From positions 248,001-312,000 of the forward strand of contig NZ_JQLG01000004.1 of assembly GCF_000744115.1 (NCBI RefSeq): a stretch of DNA of 64,000 nt. Direction: 5' to 3'. Of this stretch, positions 45,078-63,207 are shown piece after piece. Within the stretch, counting starts at the first letter, position 1, and every line of letters starts with the position of its first letter. Under the pieces are notes generated by a model. It ran no database searches, was not told where the DNA came from, and saw only the letters and a list, made by a program, of their open reading frames with translations. Source of the stretch: Carnobacterium alterfunditum DSM 5972. Its GTDB lineage: Bacteria; Bacillota; Bacilli; Lactobacillales; Carnobacteriaceae. Made by a program: the position numbers and the translations under genes.

Positions 45078-46187
45078 TTAATTAGAGACTGGATCAACAA
45101 CTTGTGAATAAGAACAAACTTTATTTCTGCCGCTTTTTTTCGCTGCATAAAGGGCTTGATCAGCATGGTCATAAAGCTGATTTATTTCTATTGTCGTATC
45201 ATTATAGGTTGTAATACCTATGGAAATTGTAACATGAATGGATGTGGTCCCATTCTTGATAACAAAAAAAGAATTTTCCACTATTTTTCTTAGTGCATCT
45301 GCTTTTTCATATGCTTCTTCATGGCTACAGTCTTTGAGCAATACTGAAAATTCTTCTCCACCATTTCTAGATATAATATCGTTAGGACCTTGACTCATTT
45401 TTAAAATTGCTGCTAATTTTTTTAGTACCACATCACCTTCTAAATGGCCATAAGTATCGTTCACTTGTTTAAAATGATCAACATCTACGATCATAATAGA
45501 AATACTCTCATTTTCTTTTTCCAGTCTACTTTTTGCTTTATTAAACGCCAATTCAAAACTACGAACATTATTTAAGCCTGTCAATGGATCCGTAAAGGCA
45601 TACTTGTTATTTCTTTTGAATATAATCTCAGTTTCATTCAAGTAGTCCATCATATAAACAGCGATGACTCCTCCTAAAATACAAATGATCCAGTAGGTTA
45701 CTATTAAAAATAAATTAAAACTCTTACCTAGTGTAAAGATAACGTTCAATACTGTATAAACAATATTGCTAAAAGTAAGCATAACTACAATGGAAACCCA
45801 CCGATTTTCAATTCTTTTAAAACAATAATAAAAAATCACCCATGAAACAAGCACAAAAATAACATTAACAAATGAATAAATGCTCACACCCATCATAAAC
45901 CTAACAAAAATAATTAGAGCAGCAGTTAGTAGGCTTGATAACCAATTTTCATAAAGAACAACCAACATAAAAGGGATAATTCGAAGATCAATCATAGAAT
46001 TTGTGCCAGTTTTAATACTAAAGCGCATTAAAACAGCAGCCAGAAGTCCTCCAAATAAGCCCTTTATAATAGCTGTACTTACAGTTTGCATTGCGAAAGA
46101 ACTCTTTTTCACGAGTTCTTTATACACAAATAGTGACGTAATCATCACACATAGATTCAGAAAAAAACCATCATAAAACGATAACAT
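45078..46187 (-). CDS. Membrane GGDEF protein, predicted diguanylate cyclase with 5TMR-LYT-like sensor
   Basis: 369 residues. About six transmembrane helices (residues 5-190) resemble the 5TM-LytS/YhcK-type sensor domain. A C-terminal GGDEF domain (about 205-362) starts at YAFTDPLTGLNNVRSFE, has the metal-binding aspartate in IVDVDHFKQVNDTYGH and an intact active site SRNGGEEFSVLL. The inhibitory RxxD site is absent: the bases upstream encode GPND. It should make cyclic di-GMP, which may be read by the GGDEF-HD-GYP protein and polysaccharide operon 7 kb away (inference). A strong terminator-like hairpin lies upstream at 46387-46437. Confidence 0.88.
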   Translation of the reverse strand: MLSFYDGFFLNLCVMITSLFVYKELVKKSSFAMQTVSTAIIKGLFGGLLAAVLMRFSIKTGTNSMIDLRIIPFMLVVLYENWLSSLLTAALIIFVRFMMGVSIYSFVNVIFVLVSWVIFYYCFKRIENRWVSIVVMLTFSNIVYTVLNVIFTLGKSFNLFLIVTYWIICILGGVIAVYMMDYLNETEIIFKRNNKYAFTDPLTGLNNVRSFELAFNKAKSRLEKENESISIMIVDVDHFKQVNDTYGHLEGDVVLKKLAAILKMSQGPNDIISRNGGEEFSVLLKDCSHEEAYEKADALRKIVENSFFVIKNGTTSIHVTISIGITTYNDTTIEINQLYDHADQALYAAKKSGRNKVCSYSQVVDPVSN

Positions 46188-46702: not shown

Positions 46703-48202
46703 GGCTGTATAATTTTTGGTGTGGATGAAGAAATTCATTCGCACCTATTTTTTTATAAAAAAATAGAAACAAATGAATTTTCCAGTTAGAATAAAGTCAC
46801 GACAACCCACTAGAAAGGAAAATTCATATGTCTCATAATAATTGTATCCGAACTGCACTTGATTTAAAAGATAAAAATATCTTTTTTGATGAAAAATTTT
46901 GCGAGGAGAAACGAATCAAAGGGTTCAGATCAAAAGTTTTCTATGCCACTTTAACGTACAAACCCACTCACTGTGAGTGTTGTGGGATGAAGAACCACGC
47001 CTACTCTATTGTAAAGAATGGGTATTTAACCTCTAGGGTTAAATGGGTCAGTTCGACTCATTATGCAACGTCTATTCGATTAAAGAAGCAGCGGTTTCTT
47101 TGTAGAGCATGCGGTGTTACCTTTGTTGCACGTTCTCCTGAAATTGAAGAAGGTTGCTTCATCGCTAAACGGGTCAAACAGTCTATCGCGGTTGAATTAG
47201 CCGACACTATTTCTATAAAAGACCTGTCTAAACGGCATTTTGTTTCTCCTACCACTGTAGACAGAGTCTTGAAACAACTCAATCAGTCTGTTAAAAATAC
47301 CTTCAAATCCTTGCCGCAACACCTCTCTTTCGATGAATTTCAATCCGTTAAAAACGTCGAAGGAAAAATGAGCTTTATTTATTCGAATGCAGACACACAT
47401 GAACCAATCGATATCTTGCCAACTCGGCTGCTACTAGCTTTACGCCGTCACTTTCTTCGCTATCCCTATAAGACGAGGATGAACGTAAAAACGATTGTCG
47501 TAGACATGAACGCGGCCTACTTTACATTAGTTAAAGATCTCTTTCCTAATGCTAAAGTGATCATTGACCGTTTCCATATCGTTCAGTTGATATCACGCTC
47601 GTTGAATCAAACCAGAGTTCAAACAATGAAACAATTCCATACCTCTAATTCAGAAGATTTAAAGAATTACAGAAAATTTAAAAGGTACTGGCAACTCCTG
47701 TTAAAGGATTCAGACGACTTAAATTTTAAGGATTACCGCTATCAACGACTCTTTAAAAAACCTTTACCGAATACAGAAATCATCGACTACCTACTTACGC
47801 TCGACGAGACTCTTAAAGCGACGTATGATTTGTATCAAAATCTTCTTTATTATTCTAAAAAAAATGACTATAAAGGGTTTAAAGACCTTGTACTTAAGGC
47901 TTCTCCTAAAGAGTTATCTCCTTTTATGCAGACTGCCCTTAAAACCCTGCGTAAACACTTGCCTAGGATAAAACATACTTTTATGTATCCCTATTCTAAC
48001 GGTGCTTTAGAAGGGTCAATCAATAAAATAAAAGTCATCAAACGGGTTGCTTATGGTTATCGGAATTTTCAGAACTTTAGATGTCGTATTTTGATTAGTT
48101 TTAAAGCAAAAAAAAGCAGCGCGAGAAGATTCTCTCACGCTGCTTAAACAAGACGTTATTTCCAACTAAATTTAGCTCATCCACACCATTTGACGTAGAG
48201 CC
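46703..48202 (+). mobile_element. Complete ISL3-family insertion sequence, 1500 bp, with 8-bp target duplication
   Basis: The left end GGCTGTATAATTTTTGGTGTG and right end (read inward) GGCTCTACGTCAAATGGTGT are imperfect inverted repeats. CCTTTTTA is duplicated at 46695-46702 and 48203-48210. Removing the IS and one duplicate restores a perfect hairpin whose arms are AAAAAACTCACTTCC and GGAAGTGAGTTTTTT, so the element entered the loop of a terminator-like hairpin. Confidence 0.95.
46828..48147 (+). CDS. ISL3-family transposase
   Basis: 439 residues: an N-terminal zinc-binding region with CECCGMKNHAY and FLCRACG, then a helix-turn-helix (LSKRHFVSPTTVDRVLKQLN) and the DDE_Tnp_ISL3 domain with SFDEFQSVKN, VVDMNAAYFTLVKDLFPNAKVIIDRFHI and SNGALEGSINKIKVIKR. 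Strong ribosome site AAAGGAAA before ATG. The final codons lie inside a palindrome (48116-48146) that also resembles a terminator; the same palindrome is inverted in the copy at the left window edge. Confidence 0.95.
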   Translation: MSHNNCIRTALDLKDKNIFFDEKFCEEKRIKGFRSKVFYATLTYKPTHCECCGMKNHAYSIVKNGYLTSRVKWVSSTHYATSIRLKKQRFLCRACGVTFVARSPEIEEGCFIAKRVKQSIAVELADTISIKDLSKRHFVSPTTVDRVLKQLNQSVKNTFKSLPQHLSFDEFQSVKNVEGKMSFIYSNADTHEPIDILPTRLLLALRRHFLRYPYKTRMNVKTIVVDMNAAYFTLVKDLFPNAKVIIDRFHIVQLISRSLNQTRVQTMKQFHTSNSEDLKNYRKFKRYWQLLLKDSDDLNFKDYRYQRLFKKPLPNTEIIDYLLTLDETLKATYDLYQNLLYYSKKNDYKGFKDLVLKASPKELSPFMQTALKTLRKHLPRIKHTFMYPYSNGALEGSINKIKVIKRVAYGYRNFQNFRCRILISFKAKKSSARRFSHAA

Positions 48203-48260: not shown

Positions 48261-49238
48261 TTACTCAAACAATCCTTTTATAGCAGCCCAAATTTGACTA
48301 AAGAAGTTGCCGATTTTATCTAATAAACCACTATCTTCAGCTTGCTGTAAGGCATCACCAAATTTGTCTTGAACGGTATTAGACAAGTTACTTAGTTGTT
48401 CTTTTACTTGGTCAGAATCGATTGCACTCGTTTGTTGGTATTTTTCAAATAAGGCCATCAAACGATCGATTTGTTCTTGTGTAACGGCATCTTGTAAATT
48501 ATTTTTTTCTAACGCTTCATTAATGATTCGTTGTACATCTTCTTTTGTAGCCAATTCACCTTGCTGCTCTTTTAAATCAGCTAAGCTTTGTTTTATATCA
48601 ATGATCGCTTGGTCAAATTTAGCTGTATCAAATGCTTCATCTTCAACGTTTTCTTGTGCGATTTCATTTGTTGTTTCTAATTCATCTTGTGCTACTGCCA
48701 TACGTTCTTGGTCTAATTCTTCTCCGTTAACATCGAAAGCTTTATAAATCCCAGTTAAAGCACTCTCTCCGGTAACCTTTCTGACACTTGCTACTTCGAT
48801 TTTTACGTCATTGACCCCTGCAGTAATAGCTGCATTTGCATATTGGTCTTGTGTTATTTGACTGATATTTTCTGGAGTAACGATTTCTACATCGACACCA
48901 TCGCCAACATCTTGTTTTTGTACCAATACGGATGAGATCATACTAGCTGTATTTCCTGAACCTTCACCTAAATAATCCACCAAATCTTGCCCTGAAACAC
49001 TATCGATAGCTACATTTTCAGGATCATTAATTTCCAATAATGCCTCTGTTTCAGTTATTTGACTTTCAGATAATCCACCACCGTAGATAAAAGTAGGTTT
49101 CCCCCATTTTTCATCGACAACGGTTGTATCGATTCCATCAGTTGTCGCACCCGCAGATTGCGGCAAGACAACTAGCGTCGCTCCTAACAAACTCATTGCA
49201 GTTAAAGCCGTTAAACTCATTTTTTTTAATTGATTCAT
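48261..49238 (-). CDS. DUF1002 family secreted protein
   Basis: About 325 residues with a Sec signal peptide (LTALTAMSLLGATLVVLPQ, likely cut after SAGA). The central region, YGGGLSESQITETEALL to AGVNDVKIEVASVRKVTGESALTGIYKAF, matches the DUF1002 family. The C-terminal half is helical and charged. The function is unknown. The frame opens at 49253, but GGAGG is correctly placed for ATG 49238. It is not part of the polysaccharide operon, from which a terminator and 560 bases separate it. Confidence 0.82.
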   Translation of the reverse strand: MNQLKKMSLTALTAMSLLGATLVVLPQSAGATTDGIDTTVVDEKWGKPTFIYGGGLSESQITETEALLEINDPENVAIDSVSGQDLVDYLGEGSGNTASMISSVLVQKQDVGDGVDVEIVTPENISQITQDQYANAAITAGVNDVKIEVASVRKVTGESALTGIYKAFDVNGEELDQERMAVAQDELETTNEIAQENVEDEAFDTAKFDQAIIDIKQSLADLKEQQGELATKEDVQRIINEALEKNNLQDAVTQEQIDRLMALFEKYQQTSAIDSDQVKEQLSNLSNTVQDKFGDALQQAEDSGLLDKIGNFFSQIWAAIKGLFE

Positions 49239-49346
49239 TTTCAAGTCCTCCATTACACGTTTTTTCCACCTATTTTACTCGTTCTTATTACCAGTATACC
49301 CAATTCTTATTAAGAAATAACTAAGCTTTTTAATAAATATTTATAT

Positions 49347-49384
49347 AAAAAAATGATTTAGGATAAATTCATCCTAAATCATTT
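49347..49384. terminator. Terminator-type hairpin after the polysaccharide operon
   Basis: AAATGATTTAGGAT and ATCCTAAATCATTT are perfect arms around AAATTC, followed on the minus strand by a T-rich stretch. It lies about 415 bases after the glycosyltransferase stop. Confidence 0.75.
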
Positions 49385-49800
49385 ACCATAAATTATGTGC
49401 TAGCATTACCGCTCCAAAGCAACCTTATGAAGTACACTAAATGGTTTAAATTAATAATTGCTATTCAAAAAATTGTCGGGTTGTATGCTCAACAAGATTA
49501 CTATGTATCTTTAGAATAACAAACATTTCTAACGTTGTCCAAACAAACTTTAATGTTTTCTTAACAAACCCTGAAAAGTTGTATGGATAATCTTTAGAAA
49601 AGACCTATTCTTAAGAAAAATTATTGATAAATAGCTCTTTGATAGCATCTCAACACCTATTTTGATTTTAATTTGCTTAATTATTTTTTGAAACTTTTTA
49701 TAATTTATTTAAAGTAAACGATATCAATCACTTGATTTCACATCAAATGAAAACTAATTCTAATTATTTTTTCAGAATCAACATGGCCGTCGGTTTCATT
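49385..49800. other. Gene-free AT-rich spacer after the glycosyltransferase
   Basis: No credible coding frame on either strand. TTGTCCAAACAAAC and scattered A/T-rich tracts are present, but I see no promoter, repeat or RNA that I can defend. It would form a long 3' untranslated region if the hairpin at 49347-49384 is the operon terminator. Confidence 0.4.
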
Positions 49801-51210
49801 TTATATTTCATTGTTTTTCGGTTTTGGATCGAAATTTTTCCGTTCAATTGTTCCCCATTGTTTACTACCTTTACGATAATTAAAAAATGCTTTCACTCTC
49901 CACCATACTGTTAATGGACGGTAATAGAACTGCTCTAAAATACTAACCATGAATAGCAATAAGATATCTTTCAAATTGCTGTAACGTTTATAAGAAATTT
50001 CTTCGAACAGAATAGCCGAAAAAGAAAATAAAATCCCCATCAAACAGGTTAACAAAAAGATAATACCAACATAAGAAGAGAGGATGTCTAAATAAATAGC
50101 TACTCCCATTACAATATATCCTATCATTTCAATCACTGGTCCTAATAACTCTACTAAAAAGAAGTAGGGCATTGAAGCTAGACCAACAGACCCATATTTA
50201 GGATTGAGCATCATTTTTTGATGTCTGTTTAAAGAATCAAATAATCCTCTATGCCACCTTACCCGTTGCCCTTTCAAATCTTTATAGCTGTCAGGTGCTT
50301 GTGTCCAGCAAACGGCATCTGAAGCAAAATCAATGCGGTAAGGTTCACCATTTTGACGGAACTTTTCATGTAATCTTAGAACAAGTTCCATATCTTCCCC
50401 AATCGTACGCTCAAATCCGCCAACTTCTAATACAGCGGATTTTTTAAATAGGCCAAATGCTCCTGAAATAATCATCAGTGCATTGAATCGTTGCCAGCCG
50501 ACACGACTCGTTAAGAAAGCTCGAAAATATTCAATAACTTGAAACCGTTCAATCATTTTCTTAGGAACTTTGGTTTGAACAATTTCCCCATTTTTTATAG
50601 TACTGCCATTTGCGATTCGAACCATCCCGCCTACTGCAATCGTTTCTTCATATTTAAGAAATGGTGAAACAATCCGTAATAAAGCGTCTTTTTCAATGAT
50701 ACAATCAGCATCGATCGCACAAAAAAAAGGATAAACGGAGACATTTATGCCGGCGTTCAATGCATCTGCTTTACCGCCATTTTCTTTATCTAATAAAATC
50801 AGATCTGAATTTTCATGAGATTTATATGCTTGTTTGATAAGGTTTGTTTCGATTTTTATATCACTATCTAGTTCTACAGGATATAAATCAAAAAATTGAA
50901 TCAGTTTAACCATTGTCTCATCTGTTGATCCATCGTTAACGACGATCACTTCAAATTCTGGGTAATCTAACTGCAAAAAAGAACGGACACTTTCCACAAT
51001 TGTTTGTTCTTCATTATAAGCCGGTACAATAATAGAAATTGGTTTAGTGTAATGACTGACACTTGTAATATTTGTTTGAATGATTTCAATAAATTCCCTT
51101 AGTCGTTTCCAAGAAACTAGGATAAGGATAAGATACAAGACTGTGACCGTGATAGCATACACTAAAATAAACATACTAAAGTAGTAAATGAAATTTTCTA
51201 TCAGCATCAT
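49801..51210 (-). CDS. Processive family-2 glycosyltransferase (PgaC/BcsA-like, no PilZ domain)
   Basis: A polysaccharide synthase of 469 residues. Transmembrane helices flank the catalytic domain (one or two at 5-32; three or four at about 320-420). Catalytic motifs are complete: IIVPAYNEEQT, IDADCIIEKD (DxD), IGEDMELVLR (the ED of TED) and GQRVRWHRG (QxxRW), the signature of processive GT2 enzymes such as cellulose or poly-N-acetylglucosamine synthases. No PilZ domain is present, so any cyclic-di-GMP control must work through partners. Its ATG overlaps the HEAT gene stop by four bases. Confidence 0.9.
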   Translation of the reverse strand: MMLIENFIYYFSMFILVYAITVTVLYLILILVSWKRLREFIEIIQTNITSVSHYTKPISIIVPAYNEEQTIVESVRSFLQLDYPEFEVIVVNDGSTDETMVKLIQFFDLYPVELDSDIKIETNLIKQAYKSHENSDLILLDKENGGKADALNAGINVSVYPFFCAIDADCIIEKDALLRIVSPFLKYEETIAVGGMVRIANGSTIKNGEIVQTKVPKKMIERFQVIEYFRAFLTSRVGWQRFNALMIISGAFGLFKKSAVLEVGGFERTIGEDMELVLRLHEKFRQNGEPYRIDFASDAVCWTQAPDSYKDLKGQRVRWHRGLFDSLNRHQKMMLNPKYGSVGLASMPYFFLVELLGPVIEMIGYIVMGVAIYLDILSSYVGIIFLLTCLMGILFSFSAILFEEISYKRYSNLKDILLLFMVSILEQFYYRPLTVWWRVKAFFNYRKGSKQWGTIERKNFDPKPKNNEI

Positions 51211-52247
51211 TCAGTCCCACTTCCTTTCATTTTTAATTGTGTAAATTGATCAGCAGTTTCAAACTTCTCATATTTCTGATCAAGCATGACATTATCTGGA
51301 TAACGTTTTTTTAAATTGTTTATGGCATTATGGCGTACCCACCAATTTTCATCCTTTAGCATGTCCATTAGTAATCCTTGTTCACTAGGTGCGTTTAACA
51401 ACGGAAGATCTTTTGCTAGTACTGCCCGCACTTGCCAATCGATTTCTTTTTTATATAGTTCTTGAAAAAAAGAAAAGTAAAAGTCATTTTCACTTGTAGC
51501 CAGTGCACGAATAGTAGCTATCCGAACTTCTCTTGATTCTTCTAAGTAAGGTAAAAGCTGGTTTACCAATAAAGGGTCCTCTTTTTTTAAACGGTTTCTT
51601 AAAACTAATAATAAGATGATTTTATTTTTATCTAGTGTAGCTTCACGTAAAAAATGAAGGATTTTTTCAACATCCATATGGAGATGATTCAACATATCAA
51701 TAATACGATCACTCATAATAGATGACTCTAACAAAGCTTCGATATAAATTGGTAATTCCTTTTCTGATAAAGGCAAGGATGAAATAGCATAAAAAGAATT
51801 GTACTTGATTTCGAAATTTTTACTTGTTGTTCCTTTGATTAATAGAGGAAATGCTTTATGGAAGCGTAGTTGACTAAAAAATTGAATATGCTGTAAAGTT
51901 AGCTTTTTCGAAGCATCTGCAATCAATTCATCATAAAAACCTAGCTGCCCTATTACCCACAGACTATTTTCAACTGTCTCAGGCTTCTGGGCATATTTCA
52001 TAAGTGTATCAAAGACAACTTTTCGTTCTTTTTTAGTTTTAAAAAAATTTAATCTTTCGACAAGCTGACTCGGATCATTGATTTTTTCTTCCATGATCGG
52101 TTGGATCAGTTTGCATGCCCTTTGATAACTTTTTTCACTTAATCGATACTTCTGATTAATGATGACTGTAAAAATAACAATGCCTAAATTCGTAATAAAT
52201 AAACTGATAACTCCTAACAAAGCAACATCAAGTAATAAATAGTTCAT
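51207..52247 (-). CDS. Membrane-anchored HEAT-repeat protein
   Basis: About 346 residues. An N-terminal transmembrane helix (about residues 5-27, VALLGVISLFITNLGIVIFTVI) is followed by helical HEAT-like repeats; the clearest are EESREVRIATIRALATSEN, DWQVRAVLAKDLPLLN and ENWWVRHNAINNLKKRYPD. It is likely a cytoplasmic scaffold for the adjacent synthase. A frame opens at 52280, but GGAGAG fits ATG 52247. Translationally coupled to the glycosyltransferase (ATGA overlap), which suggests equal amounts and a physical partnership (inference). Confidence 0.8.
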   Translation of the reverse strand: MNYLLLDVALLGVISLFITNLGIVIFTVIINQKYRLSEKSYQRACKLIQPIMEEKINDPSQLVERLNFFKTKKERKVVFDTLMKYAQKPETVENSLWVIGQLGFYDELIADASKKLTLQHIQFFSQLRFHKAFPLLIKGTTSKNFEIKYNSFYAISSLPLSEKELPIYIEALLESSIMSDRIIDMLNHLHMDVEKILHFLREATLDKNKIILLLVLRNRLKKEDPLLVNQLLPYLEESREVRIATIRALATSENDFYFSFFQELYKKEIDWQVRAVLAKDLPLLNAPSEQGLLMDMLKDENWWVRHNAINNLKKRYPDNVMLDQKYEKFETADQFTQLKMKGSGTE

Positions 52248-52293
52248 TGTATCTCTCCTGTCTTCTGAGGTTTGGTACAACTGTCATAAGAAC

Positions 52294-54114
52294 TTATTCC
52301 TTTAAAATTTCTTCTATACTTTCTAAAAAAAACCTGACAACTTCAGGATCAAATTGTGTCCCTGAATTTTTTTTGATTTCAACAATAGCTTCTTCTTGAG
52401 TCATAGCTTTACGATATGGTCGATCTTGTGTCATCGCATCATAAGCATCCACCACTGAAATAATACGAGATAATAAAGGGATATCGTGTCTCGTTAATCC
52501 ATCTGGGTATCCCTTCCCATCTGAGCGCTCATGATGGTGCAAGATAGGCAGTGCAATATCAGCTAAACCTTCGATAGACTTAATGATTTGATAGCCAATA
52601 AACGAATGTTTTTTCATTTCGGCCATTTCTCCATCCGTCAATTTGCCTGGTTTATTTAAAATGGCATCATCGATCCCAATCTTACCTACATCATGCAGCT
52701 CTGCCAATAAAGCTAACTCATCCATTTGACAAGGTGACAATTTCATCTTTTTTCCAACACTTTTTGACAAAGTCACCAGTCTTTCTGCATGTTCTTCAGT
52801 AAACTTACTTCGTACTAATAAAGTTGTTTTGATAGAAGTTAAAAGAATATTACGCATACTATCGCGGTTGAGCATCTTTTGCTTATCCATATAATCTTGA
52901 GCCTTGTTGATCATTTTTTGGATATCATAATCCATCGTGCACTTTGTTTCAGACCCTAATGCAAGATTGATTGCTGCTTGGTCTTTACTAATTTGGTCAT
53001 TGTACTCCCTGATCGCATCCTGAATTTTTTCAATGTGCCAAGAGACTTGTGAGCTGTCAGTATTAGGCAATAAAATACTGAATTCGTCTTCTCCGTAACG
53101 AGCAATATATCCATTTTTGGGAATACTTTCTCTTAAAATAGTTGTTATTGCTTTTAAGAGCTGATCTCCTTCGTAATGTCCATAGTGCTGATTGATTCTT
53201 CTTAATCCATTAACATCTCCCATAATGATTGACAGTGGTAAGTTCTTTTCATTGTCACAAGCAACTTTTAATTTCTCAAATTTGATGTGATTGAACGAAC
53301 CTGTTAAAGGATCATGGAACATCAAATGATTGATTTCTGCTTGTTCTGCTTTTCTTTTTGTCATATCAGCAAAAGTTAATATTCCTCCAAGTAAGGTTCC
53401 GTTACTCGTTTTTGGTTTAACAAAATATTCCACTGGATAGAGGGTTCCATCCATTCGTATGAAATAAATCTCATTTGATTGACACGGCTGTTTTCCAATC
53501 AATTTATTGAGGATGTCCTGCTTAACGGTCGTTTCTTCTGTTGACAACGAATCCTTAATTAAATGATTAAAAATTGGTTGTCCTACCATTTCTGACTCTT
53601 CTTTTATCCCCAATAATTTCATACAATTGAGGTTCAAAAAAGTACATCTCCCATTCAAATCGATCCCGCAAATTGCTTCTTCTGTTGAATCTAATATCAA
53701 ACTCAATTGATTTTCGGTTTGTTTTAAATCTTCTTGTGCAATATTTTTTTGTAATAGTTCAGTTGTTGATTCTGTATAGGATATAGCCGTATATTCCTTC
53801 TCAAACGAAAAAATTTGGATTCGGTAAAACTGTTTTTTTAATTCAAAATAGTAGTCTGTTTTATCATTTTTTTTTGCTTTTTCACTTGCTTTTAAAAACT
53901 GTATTGTTTTTAAATTTATTGATTCGGAAATTTCTGTTACTTTCTTTCCGAGCAATGCATCTTTGTTCATTCCTATCAAACATTCGTAAGCAGGATTTAA
54001 ATCTTTATAGATCCCATCTATAACCTTGTTATTGTTATCCTTAACCAGTTCAAAGCAAACAAAGGGATTTAGACTTGCCTGAATTATTTCTGCATAAAAA
54101 GATGGCTCCATCAT
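52294..54114 (-). CDS. PAS-PAS-GGDEF(degenerate)-HD-GYP cyclic-di-GMP signalling protein
   Basis: 606 residues, soluble. Two PAS domains (about 1-120 and 125-245) precede a GGDEF domain (about 255-400) and an HD-GYP domain (about 420-600). The HD-GYP motifs are complete: LHDVGKIGIDDAILNKPGKLT, MKKHSFIGYQI, and HHHERSDGKGYPDGL, so cyclic-di-GMP hydrolysis is likely. The GGDEF site reads YGEDEF (second glycine replaced by glutamate) and the RxxD inhibitory site is missing, so synthesis is doubtful; it may only bind GTP. The frame opens at 54195; AGGAGGG fits ATG 54114. It lies in the synthase operon as a likely local regulator. Confidence 0.88.
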   Translation of the reverse strand: MMEPSFYAEIIQASLNPFVCFELVKDNNNKVIDGIYKDLNPAYECLIGMNKDALLGKKVTEISESINLKTIQFLKASEKAKKNDKTDYYFELKKQFYRIQIFSFEKEYTAISYTESTTELLQKNIAQEDLKQTENQLSLILDSTEEAICGIDLNGRCTFLNLNCMKLLGIKEESEMVGQPIFNHLIKDSLSTEETTVKQDILNKLIGKQPCQSNEIYFIRMDGTLYPVEYFVKPKTSNGTLLGGILTFADMTKRKAEQAEINHLMFHDPLTGSFNHIKFEKLKVACDNEKNLPLSIIMGDVNGLRRINQHYGHYEGDQLLKAITTILRESIPKNGYIARYGEDEFSILLPNTDSSQVSWHIEKIQDAIREYNDQISKDQAAINLALGSETKCTMDYDIQKMINKAQDYMDKQKMLNRDSMRNILLTSIKTTLLVRSKFTEEHAERLVTLSKSVGKKMKLSPCQMDELALLAELHDVGKIGIDDAILNKPGKLTDGEMAEMKKHSFIGYQIIKSIEGLADIALPILHHHERSDGKGYPDGLTRHDIPLLSRIISVVDAYDAMTQDRPYRKAMTQEEAIVEIKKNSGTQFDPEVVRFFLESIEEILKE

Positions 54115-54184
54115 TCTTCCCTCCTTATACTTCACTCGCCTCTTTTGTGAAGTTTCGTAAAATATCTCCTTGTTCTTTAATGCT

Positions 54185-56332
54185 TTATTTATCATATTCT
54201 AAAAAAGCTTCTTTTAATAAGTAATAGGATGGTTTCAATCGTTCGTGGTATGTGGGCAATTCCCACGGTTCCCATAAATAAGGTTCTAACATTATTTTAT
54301 TGGGCTCAGTGGATCCCTTTTTCACTAAAGCTGCCCCTAGATAAATATTTTCTACACTAACTGCTTCAATACCTTTATTTTGATACAGATCTCCTATAAT
54401 TTGTTTCGTTGAAGGATCCATGACATTCAATAACTGCCATGGCAAAGCAATTTCAACAATACCATCTTTCACTGCAAAATCAGTCAATGAATTGTACTCT
54501 TCATGTTCCGGATTCCCATTTCCTAATACTAAAGCTCCTGTTTCATACTTTGAAAAAGGGATAACTTCATTTGTTTGAGGCAACGTTAATTCAGCTGACA
54601 AAGCATGATTCATTGGGTTAAACAACCCTGAATTTTTTTTCGTGTAAGCTGGTTGCTTCTCGATTGCTTCTAATTTTTCTGCATATTGGTAATAATAAGA
54701 GTCGTAATAAGCATCTACCATAATGGAGGATCCCGTCGCTCCGTTTATTTTTACTAGAAAATCAGTTGGTCGAGAAAAAATTAATGAACCATCAGCTGTT
54801 TGACTATTTCCTTGCTCATCTTTTACATCAATAGCAATAACTAATTGATCTTTTTCAAAATCAAAATCTTTCGCTTCTAATTTCACATAAAGGTATTTTT
54901 CATCTGATTTTACTGAAAGAGTATTTTCTTCATTTTTTGACAACTGGTCTTTTTCACTCCACTCAGAATCATTTCCATCAACGTAGACTACGCTTTTTTC
55001 TTTCCCAGGATCAAAAGCCAGCAACCCGAAATGTTGCTCATTGGTTTGAGGATTAGACCAGTATGGTCGACGGTCAGACAAATCAAAATCTAGTGTGTTC
55101 CAAGTTCGTTTAAACCATTCATCTTGCCACGTAAACACGAGTCCTCCTAAATAACCTTCGTCGTGTATATCCTGCATCATATCGATCAACATTTCGCCTT
55201 GTTCGGTCTCCTCAATGCCTCCTTGGTTAAACCCTGAATACAAACTTTCATGAGCTTTCCCTCTAGAAGCCGGTATTCCAAATTCAGCTACCATAACTGG
55301 CACAGTATGTTCTTTGATCAGATCTCTTAAATAAGCTTTATAAGTATTGATACTGCCGTCTTCATTTTTCACTTCAGCATACTCAGGCTGATGATTTAGA
55401 AATTCTGGATAATAAGGATAGACGTGATAAGAAGCAAATAATCCAGTTTCTAATTGATCTGTGCCTTTTATATGTTCTGTGTTTACGACTGCCATATCCT
55501 CAGTCCCATCCGGTTCATTTGGATGATCTAGCATATCTGTCGTTAGCCAGTTGGTATAGCTCAGTGGACGCATAGTTTGATACTCTTGAACTTCATAGGA
55601 TAAAGTAGCATCCCCTACTTCCGCTAAGAATACCTCAAACGGCGAAGCTCCATCTGTATACAAGTAGTCCCCTTCAAATGCAGTCATTTCTGGGTTCGCT
55701 TCATTTGTTTGATTGACAAAATAAGGATCCCATTCGACACCTAATATCCAGCCTATAACGTACTTAGAAATATCTTTTGTGTATTTCCCATCCGCGAAGC
55801 CGGCTTTTTCGGGTAAGTTTGCTTGACCGTGTAACACATCTACTAAATTTGTAGCATCTTTTATGAAGTCTTTTTTTATTTTTTCATCTTCAGCATAGGC
55901 ATCGCTCAATTCAGCAATTCCCTCTTCATTCAAATATACACCGTGCATTAAGTATAGCGGATCGTCATTTTGCAAGTTAAATTCATACAGAGCATCATAA
56001 AAATCCGGTTTTAAAATAGTATATACCCGAATAACATCTGCATTCATCTCTTTGATTTGTTTAAACCAACGCAAATATTCATCTTTTGTAATAGCTAGTT
56101 CGCCTGGAAAAGTTCCTGGCTTTGCAGCTCCCATATTCACACCAGCTAAAAATGTAGTGGTCCATTCACCATCTTTATAAATATAGAATTCTTTTCCTTC
56201 AACTTTTGCTACGTAAGAAAGATCGTTTTCAGATTGGTAAACTGTTTCTTCAGTTTGATCCATAAAAAAAAGGCCTCCTCCGATAACTAATAAACTAAGT
56301 GCTATTCCAATGATCATCCCTTTTTTTCCCAT
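54185..56332 (-). CDS. Membrane-anchored glycoside hydrolase-like protein (clan GH-A fold) with C-terminal carbohydrate-binding-like domain
   Basis: About 715 residues: an N-terminal transmembrane anchor (about 8-26), a TIM-barrel region (about 55-440) starting FLAGVNMGAAKPGTFPGE, and a C-terminal beta-rich domain (about 465-715) resembling CBM9/DOMON modules (VYVDGNDSEWSE). Two glutamates sit as in clan GH-A: acid/base in GVEWDPYF and nucleophile in VMVAEFGIPASRG. The polysaccharide target is unknown. First gene of the operon; GGAGTGGGG precedes ATG 56332. As the only exported enzyme of the cluster, it would act on the polymer after export (inference). Confidence 0.8.
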   Translation of the reverse strand: MGKKGMIIGIALSLLVIGGGLFFMDQTEETVYQSENDLSYVAKVEGKEFYIYKDGEWTTTFLAGVNMGAAKPGTFPGELAITKDEYLRWFKQIKEMNADVIRVYTILKPDFYDALYEFNLQNDDPLYLMHGVYLNEEGIAELSDAYAEDEKIKKDFIKDATNLVDVLHGQANLPEKAGFADGKYTKDISKYVIGWILGVEWDPYFVNQTNEANPEMTAFEGDYLYTDGASPFEVFLAEVGDATLSYEVQEYQTMRPLSYTNWLTTDMLDHPNEPDGTEDMAVVNTEHIKGTDQLETGLFASYHVYPYYPEFLNHQPEYAEVKNEDGSINTYKAYLRDLIKEHTVPVMVAEFGIPASRGKAHESLYSGFNQGGIEETEQGEMLIDMMQDIHDEGYLGGLVFTWQDEWFKRTWNTLDFDLSDRRPYWSNPQTNEQHFGLLAFDPGKEKSVVYVDGNDSEWSEKDQLSKNEENTLSVKSDEKYLYVKLEAKDFDFEKDQLVIAIDVKDEQGNSQTADGSLIFSRPTDFLVKINGATGSSIMVDAYYDSYYYQYAEKLEAIEKQPAYTKKNSGLFNPMNHALSAELTLPQTNEVIPFSKYETGALVLGNGNPEHEEYNSLTDFAVKDGIVEIALPWQLLNVMDPSTKQIIGDLYQNKGIEAVSVENIYLGAALVKKGSTEPNKIMLEPYLWEPWELPTYHERLKPSYYLLKEAFLEYDK

Positions 56333-56540
56333 TTCCCCACTCCTTTTAGTCAATGTACTAGCTACCTCAACAATGAACTTTTATTTTCAATAAATCGGTT
56401 CCAATTATCTTTCTATGTATTAAAAATCCGACTATATTAATTACTATAACCGAACGCCGTCTTTAAGGATAGCGGATTTTAATTTTTTTTTGATCTTGGC
56501 TCTGAATCATTGTTTTATTCTTGTTCTAACAACAATAAAT

Positions 56541-56590
56541 CAGCCTGCAGCAAAGAAAATCAGTGCTGATTTTCTTTGCTGCAGGCTGCT
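56541..56590 (-). terminator. Strong terminator of the liv operon
   Basis: AGCCTGCAGCAAAGAAAATCAG pairs perfectly with its complement around a 2-base loop, one of the longest stems in the window, 16 bases after the CBS-ACT gene stop. Confidence 0.88.
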
Positions 56591-56605
56591 TTTCTCTAGA
56601 TTTTT

Positions 56606-57259
56606 TTATCTTTTTCCTGCTTTATAGATTGCTGAACTAACAGTATAACCACTTGTCGTTAAAATCTCTTTTATCGTCTTTGTATCTGGACTATCCATTT
56701 GAATGATCACTTCCGTAAAATCATCTTTTCGGTAGACCGCGATTTGATTAATACTAATCTGAGCTTCGGCTAAAATATTAGTGATATCTTCAAGGATCCC
56801 TGGCTGGTCTTCTGGAATATCAATCACAATACGGCTCCCTTTATTGTTATATCCCATAATATCGATAAAGGCGCTAAAAATATCCTTATCGGTGATGATT
56901 CCTACAATTTTATTTTGGTCTTCTACTACAGGCAAAACCCCTACTTTTTGGTCGCGCATCCGAGACGCAGCTTCTTCTAGCAGGTCATCTGCCTGGATCG
57001 TAACGACTTTTTTATGCATGATATCGCCAACTTTAGTTTTGGTCAACAAATAATTCATTTCATGGATACTCAAACTTGTCGCGGTGGAAGGAGAATTTTC
57101 TTGGATGATCTCTTGTGTAACTAATCCGACCATTCGCCCATCTTTTACTACTGGCAAACGATGAAAATCATTTTCTTTCATGATATCTAGTGCTTCTAAA
57201 ATTTTTGTATCCTCTGAAACGGTCACAACATTTGTCGTCATATAACTTTTTACATCCAT
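56606..57259 (-). CDS. CBS-ACT domain protein (AcuB-like)
   Basis: 217 residues: two CBS motifs (about 5-60 and 75-130, with MTTNVVTVSEDTKILEALDIM and DIMHKKVVTIQADDLLEEAASRM) followed by an ACT domain (about 138-210, IDIPEDQPGILEDITNILAEAQISINQIAVY). ACT domains commonly bind amino acids and CBS pairs bind adenylates. As the last gene of the branched-chain amino-acid transport operon, three bases after livF, it may sense branched-chain amino acids or energy state (inference). Relatives are annotated as AcuB; no acetoin genes are nearby. Confidence 0.87.
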   Translation of the reverse strand: MDVKSYMTTNVVTVSEDTKILEALDIMKENDFHRLPVVKDGRMVGLVTQEIIQENSPSTATSLSIHEMNYLLTKTKVGDIMHKKVVTIQADDLLEEAASRMRDQKVGVLPVVEDQNKIVGIITDKDIFSAFIDIMGYNNKGSRIVIDIPEDQPGILEDITNILAEAQISINQIAVYRKDDFTEVIIQMDSPDTKTIKEILTTSGYTVSSAIYKAGKR

Positions 57260-63036: not shown

Positions 63037-63207
63037 ATATGGAAAAACGTCCATATCGAGATTTTTCTGGTACTCGCGTAACCAAAATTACTGCGTCACC
63101 GTGTCCCAGCTCGCCGCGTTCTCGCTACTATGGTTTATGTAACACTCAACAGTCTTAAATTCCCGAATAAGCCTTCGGTACATGCTATGAGTTGCGTATG
63201 TGTTATA
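63037..63207 (-). ncRNA. Candidate omega RNA / right-end region of the TnpB element
   Basis: Directly downstream of tnpB on the same strand lie short hairpins: CCGAA/TTCGG (about 63165-63180), a TGGT/ACCA stem near 63074-63091 and ATATGGA/TCCATAT (63037-63058). In IS200/IS605 elements the omega RNA is transcribed from the 3' end of tnpB into the right end. The exact RNA and element ends are not defined here. Confidence 0.45.

Follow-up and report, generated by a model that had tools for sequence, protein, structure and literature searches.

A HEAT-repeat protein as a probable subunit of a family 2 glycosyltransferase in a predicted Carnobacterium polysaccharide operon with an exchangeable regulator

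Described systems and the layout of the locus

To our knowledge, known c-di-GMP-controlled polymer synthases rely on a PilZ domain, a degenerate GGDEF domain or a PgaD partner. In PgaC-PgaD of E. coli, a family 2 glycosyltransferase (GT2) and a membrane partner that make PNAG are activated by c-di-GMP without PilZ (PMC8461298); PgaD is a small membrane protein without a known fold, and no HEAT protein. The Listeria pssA-E operon is likewise a Firmicute GT2 operon with a GGDEF-family protein of degenerate GGDEF site and it encodes PssD, which resembles BcsB, and PssE, a receptor with an I-site (PMC4125290). The gts operon of Lactobacillus acidophilus is a Lactobacillales GT2 operon tied to c-di-GMP; its GtsA partner has no recognised domain, PdeB, with a degenerate EAL domain, acts as receptor (PMC6123363), and neither a glycosidase nor an HD-GYP protein figures among the components. 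In Caulobacter CC3396 (PdeA) a phosphodiesterase domain is paired with a GEDEF domain, which binds GTP and thereby stimulates the phosphodiesterase (PMC4823724).

We compared with these systems an operon from a 64,000-nucleotide stretch of the Carnobacterium alterfunditum DSM 5972 genome (contig NZ_JQLG01000004.1, positions 248,001 to 312,000; hereafter the window). Four open reading frames on the minus strand, at 49801-56332, are transcribed in the order glycosidase, PAS-GGDEF-HD-GYP protein, HEAT protein and GT2 (Table 1). Starts placed by ribosome-binding sites (56332, 54114, 52247 and 51210) give spacings of 70, 46 and -4 bases, the last being an ATGA overlap, which reproduces exactly the tightly spaced, co-directional arrangement of the preliminary description. 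The unit is bounded upstream and downstream by terminator-like hairpins.

Table 1. Features of the operon and its surroundings, in window coordinates
Feature	Positions	Strand	Basis or remark
Glycosidase, first operon gene; predicted membrane-anchored, extracellular, clan GH-A-like	54185..56332	-	RBS AAGGAG before ATG 56332; N-terminal helix 8-37; fold
Cytoplasmic PAS-PAS-GGDEF(GEDEF)-HD-GYP protein; predicted to hydrolyse cyclic dinucleotides	52294..54114	-	Pfam, motifs, RBS AAGGAGG
HEAT-repeat protein, membrane-anchored, cytoplasmic; predicted synthase subunit	51207..52247	-	Pfam, AF2, GT2 adjacency, HEAT-like part in GT2 chains elsewhere
GT2 polysaccharide synthase, processive-type, without PilZ	49801..51210	-	Glycos_transf_2, invariant catalytic residues, nearest NCBIfam PgaC_IcaA
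Strong 20-pair hairpin, bidirectional terminator-like	56541..56588		Hairpin scan; separates upstream operon from glycosidase gene
Terminator-like hairpin 3' of GT2	49351..49384	-	Hairpin scan; 417 bases past GT2, ahead of DUF1002 gene
Conserved non-coding stretch	~49384-49700		Upstream of DUF1002 gene
Exported DUF1002 protein	48261-49253	-	Comes after GT2 in 3/3 operon-bearing species of the host genus
ISL3-family transposase	46828-48147	+	Between GGDEF and DUF1002 genes; nearest relative in Jeotgalibaca (54%)
Five-TM GGDEF protein, intact GGEEF	45078-46187	-	~3.6 kb downstream of GT2; GGEEF paralogues elsewhere in genome (L156, L157)
RAGATH-18 RNA	63088-63153	-	Score over gathering threshold

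The operon shares with PgaC-PgaD a GT2 with a membrane partner, and among curated GT2 families that of PgaC comes nearest; PilZ-independent control by c-di-GMP, known there, is in our case a proposal. However, PNAG systems have a PgaB/IcaB deacetylase along with PgaD/IcaD, and neither is found here. Unlike Listeria pss, it lacks a BcsB-like gene and an I-site RxxD, and has an HD-GYP and a HEAT protein. An EAL receptor of the PdeB type beside the GT2, as in gts, is likewise missing, the host genome being without EAL. Closer at hand, two sister species of the same genus (G009 and G010) encode a 736-aa BcsA-like GT2 with PilZ, behind which lie genes for an EAL protein and a diguanylate cyclase; this operon also combines a synthase with cyclase and phosphodiesterase genes, but PilZ is part of the synthase, EAL takes the place of HD-GYP, and both a HEAT protein and a member of this glycosidase family are lacking. 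The tandem of GEDEF and phosphodiesterase domains recalls CC3396, although the latter domain is EAL there and HD-GYP here. On these comparisons (for Pel and ydaJ-N, by gene content only), the initial view, which recognised no known Pel, Pss, Bcs, Pga or ydaJ-N operon in the gene set, holds.

Several candidate additions to the unit were rejected. No riboswitch reached the Rfam gathering score anywhere in the window, and low-threshold scans of 56200-56700 and 49200-49850 for a c-di-GMP riboswitch gave chance-like matches only. The region 3' of the GT2 holds only frames of at most 40 aa and aligns as non-coding, which discounts a hidden small PgaD-like gene there. The GGDEF gene at 45078-46187 is unlinked to the operon in the sister species and was discarded as a member.

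The four proteins

The GT2 matches Pfam Glycos_transf_2 with 89 bits (cut-off 23), and D93, the DxD at 167/169, ED at 272/273 and QRxRW at 315-319 are invariant across 16 relatives, whereas Pfam found no PilZ domain, so that its earlier portrayal as a synthase with complete DxD, ED and QxxRW motifs and without PilZ is borne out. Its nearest NCBIfam family, PgaC_IcaA (TIGR03937), scores 140 bits, far under the cut-off of 422, and the cellulose synthase model BcsA (TIGR03030) scores 45 bits against a cut-off of 699; nor does the GT2 have the C-terminal PilZ of BcsA, a domain absent from both protein and genome. By the criteria tested, it is thus no PNAG, cellulose or Pss synthase.

The HEAT protein is recognised both by profile, with HEAT_2 and HEAT above cut-off (HEAT_2 39.4 bits, cut-off 27.7), and by fold: its AF2 model (pLDDT 91) has one long N-terminal membrane helix followed by an alpha-solenoid, the closest PDB folds being alphaRep, importin and PP2A. 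Searches with this protein alone recovered 28 genomes, namely three of the six sampled species of the host genus including the host, five more among 295 of the order and 20 more among 399 of the class, and the GT2 gene adjoins the HEAT gene in all 28. Outside the host genus, identity to the host protein is only 13-27% for HEAT, 38-59% for the GT2 and 37-58% for the glycosidase. In Heliophilum fasciatum (L053, 1378 aa, HEAT_2 46.9 bits, HEAT-like part N-terminal) and in an uncultured Clostridia genome (L102, 1009 aa, HEAT_2 41.5 bits), HEAT-like and GT2 parts lie in a single open frame; a third protein (L059, 945 aa) has this layout by architecture only, its HEAT score not being significant. 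Since a HEAT-like N-terminal part thus shares a polypeptide with GT2 in H. fasciatum and two MAGs, the HEAT protein is very probably a synthase subunit, and these single-chain cases are the strongest evidence for that role. Together with the adjacency, they uphold the earlier pairing of HEAT with GT2. Each of the three fused genes overlaps an upstream gene encoding GGDEF and REC domains; in two of them (L102:3791-5797 and L059:16087-18066) the overlapping product is an ODP (diiron oxygen-sensor-like)-GGDEF-REC protein with a degenerate GGDEF site. Neither HEAT nor GT2 shows a c-di-GMP-binding motif of a known kind, and the D and R residues conserved in HEAT occupy usual positions of the repeat. 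Spread of the operon by plasmids was discarded, as HEAT has no match in plasmids.

The glycosidase has no sequence match in Pfam, NCBIfam or PDB. Its AF2 model (pLDDT 91) is a confident clan GH-A-like barrel, which clan GH-A folds (GH157, GH2 and others) match at low TM-score; the best Foldseek hit, a GH157 beta-1,3-glucanase (laminarinase), is a likeness of fold only (TM 0.34/0.46, 11% identity, no sequence match). Two glutamates, E207 and E357 in the numbering of the 722-residue frame, are invariant in 44 sequences and would be the catalytic pair, so that both the barrel and the two glutamates of clan GH-A are present. Of the initial label "exported glycosidase", the second word is correct at the level of fold because the model is such a barrel, and an extracellular location is predicted; given the membrane helix at the N-terminus, anchoring outside is more likely than release. 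Three relatives (L071, L067 and L081) have, between glycosidase and HEAT, a separate 373-aa domain of no Pfam family, similar to what forms the N-terminal half in the long (~1070 aa) glycosidases of L033 and L044.

The regulator matches HD_5 (120 bits, cut-off 27), GGDEF (89.8 bits) and PAS (48.5 bits), with one strong PAS match and PAS_9 covering two stretches. The motifs HDVGK and HHERSDGKGYP supply the HD dyad, the GYP loop and the metal ligands, and the GGDEF site reads RYGEDEF without RxxD, in line with the initial motif reading of a complete HD-GYP domain and a YGEDEF site lacking an inhibitory RxxD. The GG[D/E]EF of active diguanylate cyclases is replaced by GEDEF in this protein and in L030 and L031. 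It is thus a predicted cyclic-dinucleotide phosphodiesterase, and the only c-di-GMP phosphodiesterase detected in the host genome, where domain searches found no EAL or PilZ, and three further GGDEF proteins, each with an intact GGEEF. GGDEF genes are present in all six sampled species of the genus, HD-GYP only in the three operon-bearing ones, EAL only in the other three, and PilZ only in G009 and G010, both among the three sisters without the operon.

A core with an exchangeable regulator

When named genomes were scanned with a profile of the glycosidase and the best 80 loci were used, the conserved unit proved to be a glycosidase-HEAT-GT2 core whose regulator can be exchanged, not a four-gene set. 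Among the matches listed, the core occurs in Clostridium, Acetobacterium, Paenibacillus, Desulfosporosinus, Heliophilum, Bacillaceae, Ruminococcus MAGs and others, ordered glycosidase-HEAT-GT2 or HEAT-GT2-glycosidase; the four-gene order with HD-GYP is restricted among them to three species of the host genus, against the preliminary description of all four genes as the unit. A gene with REC, GGDEF, HD-GYP or kinase domains lies in the same run at 46 of the 69 complete cores listed and is absent from 23, compared with 50 of 1029 background genes (by custom-built domain models), counts that are not independent because the loci are related. The signalling gene is therefore no fixed part of the unit, the 23 cores being cases that had been named beforehand as contradicting it, whereas the proposed tie to c-di-GMP signalling gains from the recurrence of c-di-GMP and phosphorelay genes here in many lineages.

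The slot holds REC proteins, (Hpt-)REC-GGDEF-REC proteins with a hybrid kinase, ODP-GGDEF-REC proteins, HD-GYP proteins or the GEDEF-HD-GYP protein of the host. By Pfam of representatives, Bacillaceae have Hpt-REC-GGDEF-REC, REC and a hybrid kinase; another genus of the host order has REC, a hybrid kinase and Hpt-REC-GGDEF-REC; Clostridia have REC, REC-GGDEF-REC, GGDEF-REC and ODP-GGDEF-REC; Ruminococcus has HD-GYP; large Paenibacillus-like genomes have X-REC with UDP-glucose dehydrogenase; and Pontibacillus has LacI. The regulator sits between glycosidase and HEAT, as in the host, at L050, L052, L055, L057, L064 and L079. REC is the commonest domain, with 71 in slot genes, and often stands alone directly 5' of HEAT (L052, L055, L061, L065, L079, L115). 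The GGDEF site is degenerate at L053, L059, L064 and L102; Bacillaceae loci have an intact GGEEF, some with RxxD (L106, L121).

A GT2 tree of 70 rows requires 17 switches of regulator label and no fewer than two recruitments of HD-GYP, those in the host genus and in Ruminococcus being separate. The slot is without a regulator in the operons closest to that of the host on this tree (L035, Acetobacterium, Anaerocolumna), so that the host HD-GYP is a recent local addition. All 13 genomes with regulator-less cores that were tested hold 5-53 GGDEF genes.

Proposed working and alternatives

BcsZ, CcsZ and PelA trim or release the chain in other systems. We consider it somewhat probable that the locus is a cyclic-dinucleotide-switched surface-polysaccharide operon with HEAT and GT2 as a gated complex that HD-GYP turns off. 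The GT2 would polymerise, and probably extrude, a chain from a nucleotide sugar, with HEAT as its obligate membrane-anchored cytoplasmic subunit, and the extracellular glycosidase may trim or free the chain in the manner of those three enzymes. The three predicted diguanylate cyclases would supply c-di-GMP and the PAS-GEDEF-HD-GYP protein remove it, its degenerate GEDEF probably binding GTP and stimulating HD-GYP by analogy with CC3396. At low c-di-GMP the HEAT-GT2 complex would be inactive by analogy with PgaC-PgaD, which is its nearest working model. The gene set, the motifs, the HEAT-GT2 linkage, the HEAT-like fusions, the repeated regulator swaps and the lack of detected EAL or PilZ come from sequence; we infer polymer synthesis, the hydrolase substrate, the direction of control and the place of c-di-GMP binding, and the HD-GYP-controlled gate is itself drawn by analogy. 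In its favour we count the unbroken adjacency of HEAT and GT2 and their single-chain cases, the repeated gain of signalling genes by the core, the match between operon and HD-GYP within the genus, the GGDEF genes in all tested genomes with regulator-less cores, and the precedents of CC3396 and PgaC-PgaD. Against it we count the one third of cores with no regulator beside them, the vacant slot of the operons closest to that of the host, the lack of a recognised c-di-GMP-binding motif in HEAT and GT2, the degenerate GGDEF at several loci and the REC-only lineages, which point to a phosphorelay and not to c-di-GMP.

The last of these favour a reading in which HEAT is a docking platform and not a c-di-GMP receptor: a REC, GGDEF-REC or HD-GYP protein would bind it and gate the GT2, with nucleotide turnover secondary, as in a trigger phosphodiesterase. 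HEAT solenoids are classic scaffolds for protein binding, and the folds closest to the model, the prevalence of lone REC proteins directly 5' of HEAT and the frequently degenerate GGDEF domains fit this; yet nucleotide turnover seems to have been kept, since the GGEEF of Bacillaceae, in places with RxxD, and the host HD-GYP are intact, and we hold docking alone to be rather doubtful. It is unlikely that HD-GYP is a global phosphodiesterase merely co-transcribed with a synthase free of direct c-di-GMP control. As the sole phosphodiesterase detected, it must handle all c-di-GMP traffic in the genome, and cores without a regulator exist, but regulators of the same signalling type joined the core repeatedly and independently, and HD-GYP tracks the operon within the genus.

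Cleavage of another cyclic dinucleotide, such as 3'3'-cGAMP, in a system not based on c-di-GMP, is quite improbable: among solved structures the HD-GYP domain comes closest to 5z7c, a 3'3'-cGAMP-specific phosphodiesterase 3, but 4mcw (Persephonella HD-GYP), which we take to be a c-di-GMP enzyme, is almost as close, and identity is too low to assign a substrate. Still harder to credit is a known EPS system (PNAG, cellulose, Pss or gts) in another guise. PgaC_IcaA is indeed the family nearest to the GT2, but every curated cut-off is missed widely, the operon lacks BcsB, PilZ, PgaD, a deacetylase and EAL, and in the open-access literature searched, judged by titles, abstracts and text passages, no HEAT-GT2 polysaccharide operon was found described.

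Returning to the gated HEAT-GT2 complex, we raise as a tentative extension, one we would not yet bet on, that HEAT subunits might form a new class of control module for Bacillota polysaccharide synthases: an alpha-solenoid anchored in the membrane, and in some lineages fused to GT2, would read c-di-GMP or a phosphorelay partner, gate the synthase and so act as PilZ or PgaD do elsewhere, while evolution freely swaps the regulator upstream of it. The initial suggestion that HEAT takes the place of the PilZ receptor may hold in that case. The operon belongs to a widespread Bacillota synthase family with a probable HEAT subunit, in which the PilZ-BcsA sister species set against the HEAT operon, the HEAT-like fusions and the regulator swaps form a natural experiment, and c-di-GMP sensing by PilZ-less Gram-positive synthases becomes directly testable. 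A potentially new polymer and a new family of glycosidases also become open to characterisation. In some large Paenibacillus-like genomes (L036, L040, L042, L041) UDP-glucose dehydrogenase and sometimes GlmS are encoded beside the core, a hint that the polymer of those relatives may contain uronic acid or hexosamine.
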